Shown: positions 15,688 to 39,584 of the stretch, piece after piece
Layout of the letters: the number at the start of each line of letters is the position of its first letter
Position numbering within the stretch: position 1 is the stretch's first letter
Assembly: GCA_003249225.1 (NCBI GenBank)
Contig: QKJQ01000015.1
Location: forward strand, 62,001 to 126,000
Origin: Clostridia bacterium
GTDB taxonomy: Bacteria > Bacillota > Clostridia > Lachnospirales > Lachnospiraceae
Reading direction: 5' to 3'
DNA: 64,000 bases
Made by a program: the position numbers and the translations under genes
Notes under the pieces: generated by a model
Databases searched by the model: none
Seen by the model: only the letters and a program-made list of their open reading frames with translations
What the model was told of the DNA's origin: nothing

Positions 15688-16077
15688 AAATCCAGTCCCC
15701 TTTACCGCTATGGCCTTTGATATCCTTTCGATTCCTTTCGATTCTTGATCCGCTTACGCAGTTAGAATAGATAGAAAAACAAATTACTAATATCTTACCA
15801 CATTATACCAAAAATGGCAGCCAAAATTAATTATCTGCCCATTTTTTTACATGAAAACCTCAGGGAATAGCGCAAGCTCTTTTCATCGTATCCATTAATG
15901 TAATTATATATACCCCCTGAACAGTTAATACTTTTATTGACCGTTTGTATGGGCAAATAAGGACCAGCAAGCGAATTGTCTTGTCAAAGGAAATCCAATA
16001 CAAGCATTGGCTTTTTTAGCTGGAAATCAAATCGATCTTTTTATGCAATTCGCAGCATAAACTTTTGCTCTGTTTGC

Positions 16078-16106
16078 TTGCACTAATAAAAAAAATTCGA
16101 TAAAAT
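16078..16106 (+). promoter_or_regulatory. Putative sigma-A promoter of the LytTR regulator operon (TTGCAC-17-TAAAAT)
   Basis: -35 at 16078-16083, 17-bp spacer, -10 at 16101-16106. Confidence 0.5.
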
Positions 16107-16197
16107 AACTGTAATGTCTTGAAGTGATTTGGAAAGATATCCATTCTTCTGTATATCTTGGTTTTCGATAAGAAACCCGAAAAGGAAGCGTATCGCT

Positions 16198-16923
16198 ATG
16201 AAAATTTGTTATTGTGAAGATGAGCCTGCGCAGGCAAACTATCTAAAAGAAAAAATAAACCAATGGGCAAAAGTTCGCAACGTAAAATGTGAAGTGGACG
16301 TATTCTTAAGTGCAGAAGAACTGCTTTTCGAGAGAGCTGTTTTTCCTTATGACCTGATGCTATTTGACATTTCGATGAAGAAAATGAACGGCATGGAATT
16401 AGCAAAGAACATTCGAGAAAAGGATAAGGAAGTAAAGATTGTATTTCTTACTTCTGATAAAAGTTTTGTATTTGATGGCTATGAGGTCAATGCACTGCGT
16501 TATCTTATGAAACCGATCGACCAAAAGAAATTATATGATTTACTAGATTATATTGAAGAAATAAGCAAAAAAGAAACAGTATCTTATATTATTTTAAAAG
16601 CAGACCTTGAAAATATTCGCCTTGCAGTAGATGATGTCATGTATATAGAGGCCGAGGGGCATTATGTGAATATATACCAAAGAGACCGCTCCTGCCTTCG
16701 GGTAAAAGAGGGCTTTCAGCAGATCCTTCAAAAATTTAAGGAAGGCGGTGGAAGCTTCATCGCCTGTCACAGGAGTTATGCTGTGAACTTGCATAATGTG
16801 AATATGATTTCAAGAACAGAATGTAAAGTGGGCAAAGAGTTCATTTTACCTGTGAGCCGTGGTTTGTATATGGAATTGAATAAAGCCTTTATTGAATACA
16901 ATCTTCAGGCTAAAAATGTATAG
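16198..16923 (+). CDS. LytTR-family response regulator
   Basis: Receiver (MKICYCEDEPAQANYLKEK, MLFDISMKKMNGMELA) and LytTR domain (DVMYIEAEGHYVNIYQ, FIACHRSYAVNLHNV). Confidence 0.92.
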   Translation: MKICYCEDEPAQANYLKEKINQWAKVRNVKCEVDVFLSAEELLFERAVFPYDLMLFDISMKKMNGMELAKNIREKDKEVKIVFLTSDKSFVFDGYEVNALRYLMKPIDQKKLYDLLDYIEEISKKETVSYIILKADLENIRLAVDDVMYIEAEGHYVNIYQRDRSCLRVKEGFQQILQKFKEGGGSFIACHRSYAVNLHNVNMISRTECKVGKEFILPVSRGLYMELNKAFIEYNLQAKNV

Positions 16924-16989
16924 ATTCGGCAGAGGAATAACAAAGAGAAGTTTTAAGTTGACATGATGGTATAGAAAAAAGGAATTATT

Positions 16990-17721
16990 ATGGATAAAAT
17001 GTGGATATTATTATTGTTAGTGGCAGCAGGGGTAATTGTTATTTTGGGGCTTGTTTTCCTGATCCGGCGAATGTTGATTCGACATTACGAAAAAACGACA
17101 ACAAAGTTTCAGAATAAATTACTGGCAAATCAGGTAGAAGAAGTGAATCATGTGTATATGACAATGCGTGGTTGGCGGCATGATTATCATAATCACATGC
17201 AGTCTTTAAAAGCATATCTTGCGATGGATCATATTGAAGAAGCCAGGGAGTACCTGAATTCTCTGGAGAATGATTTAAATGATATCAATCTATTGTTTGA
17301 TACGGGGAATGTCGGGGTCGATGCGATCTTGAACTCGAAAGTTTCTCTGGCAATTCACGATGGGATAAAAGTTGATTATTCAGCAGAGGTTCCGGTGGAG
17401 ACGACCGTATCAAATATTGACCTTTGCGTACTTCTTGGAAATCTGCTTGATAATGCAGTCGAAGCATGTGGAAAAACCGAGAAGGAAAATCAATTCATCC
17501 GTCTGTACATTGGTCAGCTTAAGAATCAACTTTATATTTCAATCAGCAATGCAACAAATGATAAAGTCAGAAAGTTTGATGAAGAATATATTTCTAAAAA
17601 AAGAGGCAATCACGGTCATGGTCTAAAACGCATTAACCTGATCGTGGAGAAATATGAGGGGTATATAAACAGGAAGAACGAAGCAGGCGTTTTTGTAACT
17701 GAGGTCCTGCTTCCCTTATAA
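16990..17721 (+). CDS. GHKL-domain sensor histidine kinase (short, few TM segments)
   Basis: MRGWRHDYHNHMQSLKAYL H-box and LLGNLLDNAVEAC, GNHGHGLKRINLIVEKYEG ATPase motifs. Confidence 0.9.
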   Translation: MDKMWILLLLVAAGVIVILGLVFLIRRMLIRHYEKTTTKFQNKLLANQVEEVNHVYMTMRGWRHDYHNHMQSLKAYLAMDHIEEAREYLNSLENDLNDINLLFDTGNVGVDAILNSKVSLAIHDGIKVDYSAEVPVETTVSNIDLCVLLGNLLDNAVEACGKTEKENQFIRLYIGQLKNQLYISISNATNDKVRKFDEEYISKKRGNHGHGLKRINLIVEKYEGYINRKNEAGVFVTEVLLPL

Positions 17722-17729
17722 TAGAATGT

Positions 17730-17763
17730 CAATTCGTGCACGGATTTTTGCAATTCGTGTGCG
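17730..17763 (+). promoter_or_regulatory. 21-bp-spaced direct repeats, candidate LytTR regulator binding site
   Basis: CAATTCGTGCACG (17730-17742) and CAATTCGTGTGCG (17751-17763); 11/13 identical, exactly 21 bp apart, upstream of the ABC exporter gene. Confidence 0.5.
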
Positions 17764-17845
17764 TTTTTGTATGTAAATCATGTTTTTGGTGTATTTTATG
17801 TGTAGGAAAAACAAACATAAAAACTGACTGGAAAAGAGGTTCGTA

Positions 17846-19645
17846 ATGGAAATCAAGGAACAAAAGCATAGTATACCGAATAATATTATTTATCTGCTTC
17901 GCCCAATCGCAGCAAATAAGCCGCGCTATCTTTTCAATCTAGCTGCTGAAGCAGTACTTTTTGTCTTGTTGCCGCTCATGGCATCAGGAATAAGTTCGAT
18001 GGTCGTTGGAATGCTGGGGCAGGAATTAACTTTACCGATTATCGTATTGGCAATTGTTAGTGCCTTTGTCGTCTACGGGATTGTGAACTGGTTACATACA
18101 TATTTTAATACATATAATAATGCGGTCTATATTGATATGCGTATTTCTTACCATTATCAAAAACTGACAAGAAAAGTGATCGAAACTTCATTAGAACAGT
18201 CGGAAAGCAATGTTGTAAGAAAAGCACTTTCAAAAGCATTTCTTGCTATTAGCAATAATAAAATTGGTGTAGAAGGTATGCTTCGAAGCTTACAGGTATT
18301 TGTAGCAAATATCTTAGGATTGGTGGTATACGTTATAATCGTCGGAACGCTTGACTGGCGCATTGTTTCTTTACTGGTTGTATTAAGTGTTATTACAACC
18401 TTGATTGCGGGACTGACCACTAAAGTATTTAATCGAATAAAGGATAAAATAGCGGAGCAGGAACGTGTAGAACAATATATCAACCGAGTAGTCGACGATG
18501 TGGATGGCGGAAAAGATATCCGAATTATGGGATTATCGGACTGGTTGATTCATAAATATGACCAGGCAATCAAAGAAAAAAGAAAAATTCTTTTTTCCTA
18601 TGATTTCGTTTGTTTTATTGCAGATGCTGTGGAGACGATTCTTTCTGCAGCAAGAGATTTGATTTGTTATGTATATTTGATTTCCTTACTGAAAGAAGGA
18701 ATGCCAATTGCCCAGTTTGTATTCTATCTGGGATTAATCAGTGGTTTTGCCGCTTGGTTTACCCAGATTAGTAAAATGTTCATTGAAATCAAAAAAGATA
18801 GTGAACAAATCAATGATATGCGTACATTTATCGAATTGAAAAACGGTATGGAAGACATCGGCATCGTTCCTGAACAAGGTTTTGAGGAACTAAATATTGT
18901 ATTTGAACATGTTTCATATCAATATGAAGGTGCTAAAAAAGCAGTATTGAACGATATTTCTTTTCAGATGAAGCAGGGGAAGCATTTGGCTTTGGTAGGG
19001 CTCAACGGCGCTGGAAAATCGACTTTGGTCAAGCTGATGTCTGGCCTATATTTACCAACATCAGGGAATGTGTATATCAATGGAGTGAATACGAGAGAAT
19101 TGAATCGAGTCCAATACATGAAACACATTGCAGCTATTTTTCAGGATCCATTTATTATGTCTTATTCACTGGGCGAAAATATTGCTCTGGACGAAACATT
19201 TGATGAAGCTCGTGCAATGGAGGCCTTACGAATCGCAGGACTTTTGAAAAAAGTGAATACGTTACCAAAGGGTCTGCAAACTTATTTGGGAAAGGATATA
19301 GATGAGTCTGGCATTCGTTTTTCAGGAGGCGAAACGCAAAAGCTTCTTTTGGCCAGGGCAATCTACAGAAATCCGAAACTTGTTCTTTTCGATGAGCCGA
19401 CAGCTGCGCTTGATGCAATTGCTGAAAATGAAATATATGAGACCTACAGTGATGTATTAAGGGATAAATCTGCATTGTTCATTTCACATCGTCTGGCATC
19501 GACAAGGTTCTGTGATGAGATTATTCTGATAGAAAATGGACTGATTGAAGAAGTCGGAACACATGATACTTTACTAAGTAAGAACGGAAAATATGCAGAT
19601 TTATTCAGGGTACAGGCAAAGTATTACAATGAGGCGGTGAACTAA
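17846..19645 (+). CDS. ABC transporter, fused permease/ATP-binding (exporter type)
   Basis: 599 aa; Walker A VGLNGAGKSTLVK, signature RFSGGETQKLLLARA, Walker B LVLFDEPTAALD. Confidence 0.93.
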   Translation: MEIKEQKHSIPNNIIYLLRPIAANKPRYLFNLAAEAVLFVLLPLMASGISSMVVGMLGQELTLPIIVLAIVSAFVVYGIVNWLHTYFNTYNNAVYIDMRISYHYQKLTRKVIETSLEQSESNVVRKALSKAFLAISNNKIGVEGMLRSLQVFVANILGLVVYVIIVGTLDWRIVSLLVVLSVITTLIAGLTTKVFNRIKDKIAEQERVEQYINRVVDDVDGGKDIRIMGLSDWLIHKYDQAIKEKRKILFSYDFVCFIADAVETILSAARDLICYVYLISLLKEGMPIAQFVFYLGLISGFAAWFTQISKMFIEIKKDSEQINDMRTFIELKNGMEDIGIVPEQGFEELNIVFEHVSYQYEGAKKAVLNDISFQMKQGKHLALVGLNGAGKSTLVKLMSGLYLPTSGNVYINGVNTRELNRVQYMKHIAAIFQDPFIMSYSLGENIALDETFDEARAMEALRIAGLLKKVNTLPKGLQTYLGKDIDESGIRFSGGETQKLLLARAIYRNPKLVLFDEPTAALDAIAENEIYETYSDVLRDKSALFISHRLASTRFCDEIILIENGLIEEVGTHDTLLSKNGKYADLFRVQAKYYNEAVN

Positions 19646-21496
19646 ATGAAAAATGAAAACAAGCTCAGAAATAAAAAGAACAGTAATCATATGACAGTAA
19701 AAGAAATGTGGGATTTTTGTTTGTTTCAGGCAAAAGGATATCGAATTATACCAGTGATTTTAGTTCTTGGTGCTGTGACCGGAGCCTTGGTCGCTTATGT
19801 AAATAGTTTCTTTTATGCTAAAATACTGGACGATCTGATTAATCAAAACTATGATAGTGCGATAAATTTTGTGATCCTTTTAATTGTTGCCGTTATGGTA
19901 ATTCAGCTGATTGCCCATGCCAGCAATCGTATATTTGACCATTATGTGGCGCCAAGTGAGGAGGAAACGAGAAAAAGAACGGCAAGGAAAGCATTCTCCA
20001 TGGAATATGAAGAAATCGAAAAAACGGAAACCTTACAAAGTTTCCGCCGCGTACGACAAGGCGAAAACGGCCATGGCGGTATCGACCGACAGCTAAAAAC
20101 GATTTCTCTGTTTTTTACAGAATGCATAAAAGTTGTATTTGCGGGTATCTTCGTGGTTGTTCTCATGGCTAAGTCGGATTTCACCAAGGAAGGTATACTC
20201 CAATTTGGATTGTCTACCCTTACTCTCCTTCTTGCCTTTATCGGTGTTTTGGTTGCGGCAAAAATGATTTCTGAAAAAATCGGGAAATTAAATCTTGAAA
20301 TGAACCTGCAAAATGAAAAAACAAATGCGCGGGGAGCCTATGTGAGTGGACTTATGAACACCGAAAGCTATGCGCAGGATTTTCGTTTATATAATCTTGG
20401 CGATTATATTATGGGGAAATGGCGGATGATTACAAAAGTAGCAGAGGTATTTTTGAATCATGGAAGAAATGTTGGAAGCTTAAATGGGTTCGTGGCATTT
20501 ACACTTCAATTGTTAGGTGGAGTAACGTATGTATACATTGTATTAAAAGCAATTGCCGGAAGTGTTACAACGGGTGAAGTCTTGATGTATGCCGGTGCAA
20601 TCATTACGATGATGGCAAGCATTCGGCAGCTCATGAGTCATCATATGCAAATTAATTATTCGAATGAATACTTACGTACTTATGAAGAATTTATCAATCG
20701 GCCGAATATGCATTACGACGGTACATTACCAATTGAAAAAAGATCAGATCTCCGATATCAATTGGAATTTAAAAATGTTTCTTTTAAATATCCCGGAACA
20801 GAAAAATATATTTTGGAGAATCTGAACATTAGGTTCAATATCGGAGAAAAGATTGCTCTCGTTGGAAGAAACGGAGCCGGTAAAACGACATTGATTAAGC
20901 TTTTATTACGCTTATATGAACCGACAGAAGGAGCGATTCTATTAAACGGAATTAATATTTGGAAATATGATTATGAAGAATATACAAAGATCTTTTCTGT
21001 CGTATTTCAGGATTTCAAATTGTATCATTTCCCTTTGGATGAAAATATCGCAGGTTCAGAAAATGTGGATGAAGAAAAAGTAAAAAAAGTGATCGAACAG
21101 GTAGGGTTAAAGGAACGCGTGGACCGTATGAAAGACGGAATTCATACAAGACTTTATCACGAAACCGGAGATGGAGAGTCTCTCTCAGGTGGAGAAGCGC
21201 AGAAAGTTGCGATTGCAAGAGCGGTATATAAAGATGCTCCCTTTGTTATATTAGATGAGCCGACAGCAGCACTTGATCCAATTGCAGAAGCAGCGATTTA
21301 CGAGAATTTTAATGAACTTGTCGGAAATAAAACAGCCCTTTATATTTCACATCGCATGAGTAGCTGTAAGTTCTGCGATCAAGTGCTCGTTGTAGATGGC
21401 GGAAAAATAGCAGAACAGGGCAATCATGAAAAACTTCTGCGTTTAAATGGAATCTATGCAGAGCTATATAATGTGCAGGCGAAGCACTATGCGTAA
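19646..21496 (+). CDS. ABC transporter, fused permease/ATP-binding (exporter type)
   Basis: 616 aa; Walker A VGRNGAGKTTLIK, signature [15 protein letters not shown], Walker B FVILDEPTAALD; adjacent to the previous gene (heterodimer partner likely). Confidence 0.93.
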   Translation: MKNENKLRNKKNSNHMTVKEMWDFCLFQAKGYRIIPVILVLGAVTGALVAYVNSFFYAKILDDLINQNYDSAINFVILLIVAVMVIQLIAHASNRIFDHYVAPSEEETRKRTARKAFSMEYEEIEKTETLQSFRRVRQGENGHGGIDRQLKTISLFFTECIKVVFAGIFVVVLMAKSDFTKEGILQFGLSTLTLLLAFIGVLVAAKMISEKIGKLNLEMNLQNEKTNARGAYVSGLMNTESYAQDFRLYNLGDYIMGKWRMITKVAEVFLNHGRNVGSLNGFVAFTLQLLGGVTYVYIVLKAIAGSVTTGEVLMYAGAIITMMASIRQLMSHHMQINYSNEYLRTYEEFINRPNMHYDGTLPIEKRSDLRYQLEFKNVSFKYPGTEKYILENLNIRFNIGEKIALVGRNGAGKTTLIKLLLRLYEPTEGAILLNGINIWKYDYEEYTKIFSVVFQDFKLYHFPLDENIAGSENVDEEKVKKVIEQVGLKERVDRMKDGIHTRLYHETGDGESLSGGEAQKVAIARAVYKDAPFVILDEPTAALDPIAEAAIYENFNELVGNKTALYISHRMSSCKFCDQVLVVDGGKIAEQGNHEKLLRLNGIYAELYNVQAKHYA

Positions 21497-21551
21497 AGGA
21501 AACGATCAATGCAAATTTTCTTTCTATTTGTTTTTGCTTTGGACCGATTAA

Positions 21552-22484
21552 CTAATTCGCGTATATATTGGCTAAATCATGTGTTTTTCGCTTCATTTCT
21601 TCACGAATATGTGGCGGCTCCAGACATTCACATTTTGACCCGAAACTAAGAAGAATATCATAATTGTAATCATTCTCTATAAATGGAAAATCAACAAGAT
21701 AATGTTCGTCATCAGCCGGTAAAAAATGATCGTACGAACAATAATCAAGCACCCTGTCCATGACAGATTCATGAATCCGGAGTTTGATTCTTACGGTCAT
21801 AGTTTCAAAGATTTCCCGAGAGTCAAAAATTGCTTTCTGAAAATCTCTTGGCACAAATTTTTCTTCTTTCATGTGTAAGTTTGCTATACGGGATAGTCTA
21901 AATAAGCGAAAATCATTTCTTTCGTAGCAATATCCTTGGAAATACCAGTGACTGTTTTTAAATACAAGCTGATAAGGCTCTACTATACGAACAGTCTTTT
22001 TCCCGTGATGTGCCACATATTCAAAGGAAAGTAACCTGCTTTCCTGTAATGCTGTCTTGATAATCCCTAAGTATTGCTGCACGTTATTGTTTCCTATCCA
22101 TGCACTCAGATCTATGCGTACTTGGTTCGACCTTATTTCAATGTCTTTCGCCCGATCGTTTGGAATAAAGCTTTTCACTTTTGCAAGTGCGCTTATTAGT
22201 TCGTCACCACGTACCATATCCGTAAGACTGGAAAGTCCCATTAAGATAGCAGAAAGATCCGCAGACGAAAAAACATTCTTTTCAATCTTATAGTTCTGCA
22301 TGATTTCAAATCCGCCTCCAACGCCCGTAGTGGATCGGATAGGAATGCCCGCCATATTGATTGACTCTATGTCCCGGTAGATGGTACGTGGCGATACCTC
22401 AAACATTTCTGCTAACTCCTGTGCTCCGATTCGCTCTTTATTAAGAAGTATCATAATAATACTAACCAGTCTGTCGATTTTCAT
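21552..22484 (-). CDS. YafY-type transcriptional regulator (HTH_11 + WYL)
   Basis: MKIDRLVSIIMILLNKERIGAQELAEMFEVSPRTIYRDIESI and WYL-region VEPYQLVFKNSHWYFQGYCYERNDFRLFRLSRI. Confidence 0.92.
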   Translation of the reverse strand: MKIDRLVSIIMILLNKERIGAQELAEMFEVSPRTIYRDIESINMAGIPIRSTTGVGGGFEIMQNYKIEKNVFSSADLSAILMGLSSLTDMVRGDELISALAKVKSFIPNDRAKDIEIRSNQVRIDLSAWIGNNNVQQYLGIIKTALQESRLLSFEYVAHHGKKTVRIVEPYQLVFKNSHWYFQGYCYERNDFRLFRLSRIANLHMKEEKFVPRDFQKAIFDSREIFETMTVRIKLRIHESVMDRVLDYCSYDHFLPADDEHYLVDFPFIENDYNYDILLSFGSKCECLEPPHIREEMKRKTHDLANIYAN

Positions 22485-26130: not shown

Positions 26131-26142
26131 GAACAGTTGTTC
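26131..26142. promoter_or_regulatory. LexA/DinR SOS box upstream of uvrB
   Basis: GAACAGTTGTTC matches the Gram-positive GAAC-N4-GTTC core; 10 bp upstream of a -35 element. Confidence 0.8.
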
Positions 26143-26152
26143 GATTTATGTC

Positions 26153-37882: not shown

Positions 37883-38410
37883 CTAGATCTCCGGTTCGAT
37901 TAAACCATATGTATTACCTTTTCTTTTATAAACTACATTAACTTCATCCGTCTCCGCATTACGGAATACATAAAAGTTATGTCCTAAAAGTTCCATTTGA
38001 ATGCATGCTTCTTCGGCATCCATTGGCTTCATTGCAAATCTCTTAACACGCTTAATTTCGATGCTGTCTTCTTCAAAAAAGTCTTCTTCAATAAATGCTC
38101 TGTTCAGGCCGACTGCATCCTGTTTCTGATCAATGATCTTATTCTTATATCTTTTCAGCTGACGTTCCAGTATCTCCTGTACTAAATCTATTGAAACATA
38201 CATATCTGAGCTGACTTGCTCTGCACGAAGAATGTTACCTTTAACCGGAATTGTTACTTCAATTTTCTGCCTCTCCTTCTCGACGCTCATTGTAACATGT
38301 ACTTCCGTATCTGGTGTAAAGTACTTTTCCAGTTTTCCAATCTTATCCTTTACTACGTTTTTTAATGATTCTGTCACCTCAATATTTTTTCCACTGATGA
38401 TAAAACGCAT
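37883..38410 (-). CDS. hpf: Ribosome hibernation-promoting factor, long form
   Basis: MRFIISGKNIEVTESLKNVVKDKIGKLEKYF; C-terminal VVKRFAMKPMDAEEACIQMELLGHNFYVFRNAETDEVNVVYKRKGNTYGLIEP-like. Confidence 0.95.
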   Translation of the reverse strand: MRFIISGKNIEVTESLKNVVKDKIGKLEKYFTPDTEVHVTMSVEKERQKIEVTIPVKGNILRAEQVSSDMYVSIDLVQEILERQLKRYKNKIIDQKQDAVGLNRAFIEEDFFEEDSIEIKRVKRFAMKPMDAEEACIQMELLGHNFYVFRNAETDEVNVVYKRKGNTYGLIEPEI

Positions 38411-38781
38411 ATAGATCAACTCCTTTTACCGGTATTTATCCTCAAATTTTCATTTGTGGATAGAATATTTCATAAAATAGACCAGATATCTAACTATGAT
38501 TCTGAGTTCAACCGGTTATTTTATGGTTATATTATAACACAGTTGGAGGCACCTAGCAAGGATAATTCAGCCACTACGATTCATTTTTGTTTTATGTTGT
38601 AACATTCGCTAAATGTATCGAAATATTCTTCCAATTAAAAGTACATTTTATTCTTATTCCGACAATTAGATGTCAAGCGTGACAATAAGAAATATAAGCG
38701 ATTTTCTAAAAATCACAAAGTAAACAAAACAAACTTTCGAACTTGACACTGATTTTACATACGACAGTCGTGGACATCTTT

Positions 38782-39024
38782 TGTGGATAATGTGGATAAT
38801 TCCGTGTATAACTTTGATTTTTCCAGTAAACAGGGCATTTTCTCAGTGGATAATATTCTCATTCCCTAAAGTTATCCACATGTGATCTTTTGTCAAATTC
38901 AAAATCATAATACCATTTTGTGCACTTTGTATATTTTAGCTCTTGTCAATAGTATCTTTTGCATCTTTTAATTTTTCAATTCACATATTTTTGCGTCAAT
39001 TGCTTCATTTTAATCTGTGGATAA
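38782..39024. promoter_or_regulatory. Cluster of DnaA-box sequences
   Basis: Perfect TGTGGATAA at 38782-38790, 38791-38799 and 39016-39024; perfect TTATCCACA at 38872-38880; one-mismatch AGTGGATAA at 38845-38853; weaker CGTGTATAA at 38803-38811. Confidence 0.75.
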
Positions 39025-39104: not shown

Positions 39105-39584
39105 ATGCATAATAATAGAAATATCCTAATTGAAGTTCATCGTATCGCAATGTTCTTAAGTCTTCGTATCGTTCGTTTTTATCAATGTCTGTTTCTGATA
39201 ATATTCATTTTCGCGATACGTCTTATGGCGTATTACGTTAACGCAGCCTTCTATCTGTTAGCTGTGGTTTTTGCCATGCAGGAAATCCTCTACATACTAT
39301 ACAAAAACACAGCAAAGACAAAAGACTCCGAACCTCTTATGCCCTTACTGTGTCATAAATATAATTACATACAATCAAAGTACCTATGCAATAACATTTC
39401 ATCAACTGTAACTTATTTACTTTTACTGTTTCTGCATATTAAGTTTACCGATACTCCTGTCTTTCCTGACTGGATTACGTACACACCTCTTATCTTGCTC
39501 CTTACATCCATCGTTTTGCAGCTTATTCTATACATTCGTTACAGAATTCGAATTCACAATGATCTTATAAACGGTGCTTTTTAA
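39105..39584 (+). CDS. Hypothetical membrane protein (about 4 TM segments)
   Basis: 159 aa, hydrophobic stretches; RBS-like AAGGAAGTGG upstream. Confidence 0.6.
   Translation: MHNNRNILIEVHRIAMFLSLRIVRFYQCLFLIIFIFAIRLMAYYVNAAFYLLAVVFAMQEILYILYKNTAKTKDSEPLMPLLCHKYNYIQSKYLCNNISSTVTYLLLLFLHIKFTDTPVFPDWITYTPLILLLTSIVLQLILYIRYRIRIHNDLINGAF

Follow-up and report, generated by a model that had tools for sequence, protein, structure and literature searches.

A conserved DnaA-box module of Lachnospiraceae: a candidate non-origin DnaA sink of the Bacillus subtilis DnaA-box-cluster kind

In Bacillus subtilis, deletion of six DnaA-box clusters (DBCs) leads to early initiation of replication (Okumura 2012, as summarized in PMC5295017 and PMC13220808). 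One of the strongest DnaA regions of that bacterium lies downstream of gcp and ydiF, with an apparent Kd of 0.15 uM with ATP and a 16-fold preference for ATP-DnaA at 55 nM (PMC4447404). In Escherichia coli, datA and DARS2 need accessory proteins (PMC5295017), and DnaA in vivo prefers pairs of boxes 2–3 bp apart (PMC11317965). IHF is absent in B. subtilis, and according to a 2026 review it is not known whether any regulators in this bacterium keep the ADP and ATP forms of DnaA in balance (PMC13220808). The locus described here touches the question of how Gram-positive bacteria without datA, DARS, Hda and SeqA limit free DnaA.

The window, the whole stretch of 64,000 nucleotides analyzed here, comes from the draft genome of a member of the Lachnospiraceae. 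Its preliminary description reported four exact DnaA 9-mers and one single-mismatch copy at 38782-39024, including an adjacent pair at 38782-38799; all were found at those positions, and the pair corresponds to boxes III and IV (Table 1). The listed boxes are real, and the weak head-to-tail box II had been missed. The interval needs to be redrawn: the boxes at 38782, 38791 and 38845 belong to a conserved module that is shifted relative to the reported cluster and extends beyond it. The other two exact boxes are local extras, and a fixed counterpart of the inverted one was absent from the alignment of 131 modules.

Table 1. Features of the DnaA-box locus (window coordinates) and of the other exact-box clusters of the draft genome (contig coordinates)
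Feature	Coordinates	Strand	Remarks
Conserved module	38661-38853	-	boxes I-IV and two further elements
Box I, one mismatch	38845-38853	-	TTATCCACT (AGTGGATAA on +); 42 bp upstream of box II, start to start
Box II, weak	38803-38811	-	TTATACACG, then 3-bp gap GAA; conserved as TTATACACNRAG
Box III, exact	38791-38799	-	TTATCCACA (TGTGGATAA on +)
Box IV, exact	38782-38790	-	TTATCCACA (TGTGGATAA on +); abuts box III head to tail
LexA-box-like element	38724-38739	-	CGAAAGTTTGTTTTGT; TTTTG begins 82 bp from box II
Imperfect inverted repeat	38661-38676	-	TTGACATCTAATTGTC; 53 bp after TTTTG
Extra exact box	38872-38880	+	TTATCCACA; inverted; local, outside the conserved module
Extra exact box	39016-39024	-	TTATCCACA (TGTGGATAA on +); local, outside the conserved module; 81 bp before the membrane-protein gene
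hpf	37883-38410	-	ribosome hibernation promoting factor; Pfam Ribosomal_S30AE and Ribosom_S30AE_C
Likely hpf promoter	38531-38559	-	TTGCTA-17-TATAAT, extended -10; ~220 bp from the box array; consensus match only
Small membrane-protein gene	39105-39584	+	divergent; orphan
Window cluster	38782-39024		4 exact boxes; densest exact-box cluster of the draft genome
oriC cluster	C14:103165-103293		3 exact boxes
Cluster upstream of dnaB/dnaD-like and dnaI-like operon	C6:46417-46519 (L032:4418-4520)		3 exact boxes

On the minus strand, the module runs from box I through 33 bp to box II, then through 3 bp to box III and the abutting box IV, and continues with a GAA-N5-GTTTTGT element and a TTGAC...GTC inverted repeat. 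The family layout, read on the hpf strand, is box I AAAGTTATCCACA, about 32 bp, box II TTATACACNRAG including the 3-bp gap, boxes III and IV TTATCCACATTATCCACA, then GAANNNNNGTTTTGT and TTGACNTTTNNAATNGTC. Spacings within the module vary by a few base pairs across the 131 collected modules: box I mostly sits at -41 ± 1, counted from box II, and TTTTG starts 80-84 bp from box II, a tightness partly conditioned on the search, since the collection required the box II-IV pattern and TTTTG near +80. Before this filter, 127 occurrences of TTTTG among 207 pattern matches fell at four adjacent offsets, 50-53 bp past box IV, and the count never exceeded 5 at any offset outside 50-54. Alignment columns outside the elements carry almost zero information in the 131 modules; therefore, the conservation is not simple recent identity. 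As judged from the alignment, the module is a set of four predicted head-to-tail boxes in almost fixed geometry, with near-constant spacing to two further non-DnaA elements.

The draft genome (4.24 Mb, 42 contigs) contains 68 exact DnaA boxes, compared with 21 matches to the reversed pattern, indicating that the 9-mer itself is enriched. Four of the 68 represent repeated elements, because the 9-mers in the first 30 bases of contigs C1, C13, C5 and C6 lie in repeats common to contig ends (L034-L037). At least three exact boxes within 300 bp were found in only three places. When the 68 boxes were placed at random, four within 243 bp occurred in 0 of 20,000 simulations (expected number ~7e-7). 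The genome-wide scan proposed earlier thus ranks the window cluster first and finds similar clusters to be rare. The site is both rare in its genome and away from oriC, as expected of a cluster of the B. subtilis DBC kind. The cluster on contig C6 reads TTATCCACATTATGCACATTATCCACA, three abutting boxes with one more upstream, between murC and an operon with a DnaB_2-domain gene and a dnaI-like gene, which suggests DnaA control of helicase-loader genes.

The cluster had been described as not an obvious oriC, and this view holds. The dnaA gene is located on contig C14, other than the contig of the window, with boxes between rpmH and dnaA, and in the dnaA-dnaN gap weak boxes are followed by the DnaA-trio CCCCTACTACTACTACG. 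The GC skew of the window is mostly negative, apart from a positive part at 16-22 kb and values close to zero at 28-32 kb. To the left and to the right of 38.8 kb it has the same negative sign, so that the proposed skew check reveals no switch at the site. In the near-complete relatives G102 and G046, the skew changes sign at dnaA and around the middle of the chromosome (with one odd negative sample at 900 kb in G046), and the module lies in one-signed skew. In the 30 bp that follow box IV, none of the 131 modules has as many as four trio-like triplets, a number reached in the dnaA-dnaN gaps of the window's genome and of L402. A second or relict replication origin would explain why the triple-box core matches the array that precedes the DnaA-trio in some oriC2 regions, but it is scarcely credible given the lack of the trio in the modules, the lack of a skew switch in the window and at the module in both relatives, and the presence of a normal oriC at dnaA. 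The distance from module to dnaA, measured in three relatives only, is 182 kb in G102 (5% of the genome, assuming that contig C1 is the circular chromosome), approximately 984 kb in G046 (14%), and 690 kb on the same contig in G391 (15%). The segment of positive skew at 16001-22000 of the window, amid mostly negative skew, carries plus-strand genes (a response regulator and two ABC transporters) and looks like an inserted or inverted segment.

The box II-IV pattern, with up to three mismatches, matched 111 of 150 Lachnospiraceae genomes and the reversed control none; some of the matches with two or three mismatches are not full modules. The core is present in at least Roseburia, Blautia, Butyrivibrio, Anaerostipes and Hungatella among the named-genome matches listed, and a genome usually has about one canonical copy of the module. 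Approximately one quarter of the family genomes show no module, including one clade of about 14 rows, indicating that the module is not essential across the family. In that clade, almost devoid of the module, several members have what we take, by sequence reading, to be a typA-like and a PAP2-like gene before hpf. Homologues of Hpf were found in 143 of the 150 genomes, nearly all of different genera, and 130 hpf loci were analyzed with their upstream DNA. Within 700 bp upstream, 63 of these loci contained 152 exact boxes; 200 shuffled words gave a median of 0 and a mean of 1, with one outlier of 75 in which the word possibly overlaps the conserved module. The tandem box pair occurs in a common layout in 61 of the 130, in line with the conservation upstream of hpf that the preliminary description proposed to look for. 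In six loci with secA divergent from hpf, the tandem pair occurs twice upstream of hpf, 97 bp apart.

The neighbours of the 131 modules are the cell-wall/trxB side together with hpf in 45, hpf only in 39 (15 of which have secA divergent upstream), the cell-wall/trxB side only in 28, and neither in 19. A DnaA-regulated hpf promoter region that couples ribosome hibernation to replication would fit the 84 modules with hpf as downstream neighbour, a count in which hpf loci are over-represented, many having been fetched through hpf. It would also fit the hpf tree (many weak nodes) in that the linked state is found on its basal rows. However, hpf is not downstream of the remaining 47 modules, and starred branches of the tree require the unlinked label to change three times or more, so that no lasting linkage was found. 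About 14 modules have flanking genes that a simple ORF finder, wrong in a few cases, calls convergent. Many genomes without a module at hpf carry one elsewhere, and hpf genes without a module mostly have no exact boxes upstream. In the window, the putative hpf promoter (10 of 12 consensus matches, with TG before the -10) lies well apart from the boxes. Because the module is intact whether it adjoins hpf or other genes or has convergent genes on its two sides, we regard it as an autonomous element, not as an hpf promoter, and consider the coupling to hibernation improbable. The earlier suggestion of a DnaA-regulated promoter is thus not supported.

The divergent gene had no match in Pfam and no relative in the named genomes or fetched loci. 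In the same-genus locus of G039 it was not found, and the module adjoins a relative of the GGDEF/EAL gene of the window. Its place beside the module therefore looks incidental from these comparisons. A promoter for this gene was considered and rejected: the fetched loci contain no relative of the gene, and the plus-strand match at 38771-38800 is partly formed by the boxes. Promoter-like matches overall numbered 8, against 5.2 ± 2.1 expected.

The first of the two non-DnaA elements resembles a LexA box. GAAC-N4-GTT occurs in 38 of 131 modules and in 0 of 89 background GTTTTG sites in the flanks, and the relaxed core GAA-N5-GTT in 75 and 2, respectively; the window copy has GAAA. The lexA gene of the window's genome is preceded by CGAACATAAGTTTTGC and CGAACATTTGTTTTC, which the module element resembles. 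One sub-clade lacks the GAAC half and retains TTTTTGT alone. Since the window copy reads CGAAAGTTTGTTTTGT and this sub-clade keeps only TTTTTGT, we treat LexA binding as no more than a lead. Elsewhere in the window, a LexA-box-like site, CGAACAACTGTTC, lies at 26131-26143 on the minus strand, approximately 450 bp before uvrB; the pattern has 2 matches in the window versus 0.7 expected. The second element, TTGAC[AT], is found at offset 53-55 after TTTTG in 80 of the 131 modules. TTGAC was rejected as a -35 promoter element, as a -10 hexamer after it was no commoner than in the control across the 131 modules, and a search of Rfam returned zero matches for the module. These two results, together with the lack of gene-marking sequence conservation beyond the short elements, argue against a hidden transcription unit for a small RNA or small protein whose promoter would be controlled by DnaA and LexA, as in B. 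subtilis sda. Such a unit would account for the near-fixed distance of the LexA-like element and for the intactness of the module across contexts, yet we judge it very improbable.

A class-wide exact search gave matches in 15 of 291 genomes, of which 12 have a gap of exactly 3 bp; gaps of up to 23 bp (24 lengths) were allowed, and the window accounts for one of the 12. The core without the full module was present in at least Paenibacillus, Bacillus, Listeria, Selenomonas and other Clostridia among the matches listed. In Paenibacillus and Bacillus it follows what we take, by sequence reading, to be an ABC-F gene (ydiF-like), in several cases presumably near gcp/tsaD. At dnaA/dnaN of L402 and L247, this core is followed by GGACCTA and trio-like triplets. 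Eleven loci of other Clostridia contain a related array, TTATTCACARAGTTATCCACATTATCCACA, not near dnaA, in most cases with an inverted TGTGAATAA upstream; this array is possibly a sister element.

We propose that the module is probably a stand-alone, non-origin site that acts as a sink for DnaA or controls it, comparable in kind to the DnaA-box clusters of B. subtilis (probability about 0.6). The preliminary description had suggested a titration or reactivation site, with a regulated promoter as the alternative; a titration-type site appears to be the best reading of a real, rare, conserved, non-origin cluster, and the promoter has fallen away. We infer that DnaA would bind the module, form an oligomer there and be held by it, with a possible SOS link. 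As it does at oriC, ATP-DnaA would nucleate a short oligomer, here on boxes I-IV. This oligomer would be unable to open DNA, because the trio and unwinding region are missing from the module, and for that reason the module could act as a DnaA sink, or as a place where the state of DnaA changes. At a distance from dnaA of 5-15% of the genome, as measured in three relatives, the module would be duplicated early after initiation and would then lower free DnaA, which may help initiation to occur once per cycle. The LexA-like element might link this control with DNA damage; alternatively, it might be bound by a different factor that gives the complex its shape.

The rigid geometry and the extra elements are not obviously needed by a pure titration site and speak against the sink. 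They fit its main rival, a catalytic site like datA or DARS, at which an ordered DnaA complex and factors bound at GTTTTGT and TTGAC would promote ATP hydrolysis or ADP release. The non-DnaA elements at fixed distances, the copy number of about one per genome, the ori-side position in three relatives and the need of E. coli datA and DARS2 for accessory proteins (PMC5295017) are consistent with such a role. On the other hand, no Gram-positive counterpart is known (PMC13220808), sequence similarity to datA or DARS is not claimed, and the accessory factors are hypothetical; we therefore consider a catalytic site unlikely. A more elaborate scheme is likewise doubtful: a family-wide decoy origin, in which a DnaA-oligomer platform without an unwinding element is joined at near-constant distances to a LexA operator and a site for a second factor, would switch DnaA availability or nucleotide state when DNA is damaged, and would be a Gram-positive equivalent of datA/DARS. 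The open-access literature that was searched contained no description of the module. It is compact and usually single-copy, has a defined geometry and occurs in most genera of a major family of gut bacteria; it provides a concrete site at which titration and catalytic control can be tested against each other.

Comparison with known systems places the proposed sink among several types of DnaA-box array. The non-coding E. coli sites datA, DARS1 and DARS2 also lie outside oriC and control free or active DnaA via an ordered complex, a likeness that we propose for the module from its layout; in contrast to them, its boxes are all head to tail and it has no known IHF or Fis sites. The 3-bp spacing of the E. 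coli double DnaA box (PMC11317965) equals the gap between boxes II and III, whereas the module has a third box abutting the pair and further elements at fixed distance. The clostridial/Bacillus oriC2 has, in L402 and L247, three head-to-tail boxes with the same 3-bp and 0-bp gaps; unlike oriC2, the module is without a DnaA-trio, unwinding element, dnaA/dnaN or skew switch. The six non-oriC DBCs of B. subtilis are likewise intergenic DnaA-box clusters. The gcp/ydiF site of Paenibacillus and Bacillus shares the box-3 bp-box-0 bp-box core, and in B. subtilis it lies at 628 kb of 4.2 Mb, approximately 15% of the genome from oriC, similar to two of the three relatives measured; the likeness is one of core and position, and the two are compared as arrays without a claim of homology. 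The module differs from the DBCs in its location, in its four rigidly spaced boxes with a LexA-like element and an inverted repeat, and in usually having about one canonical copy. On this comparison, it is best read as a putative elaborate new variant of the B. subtilis-type DnaA-box cluster.
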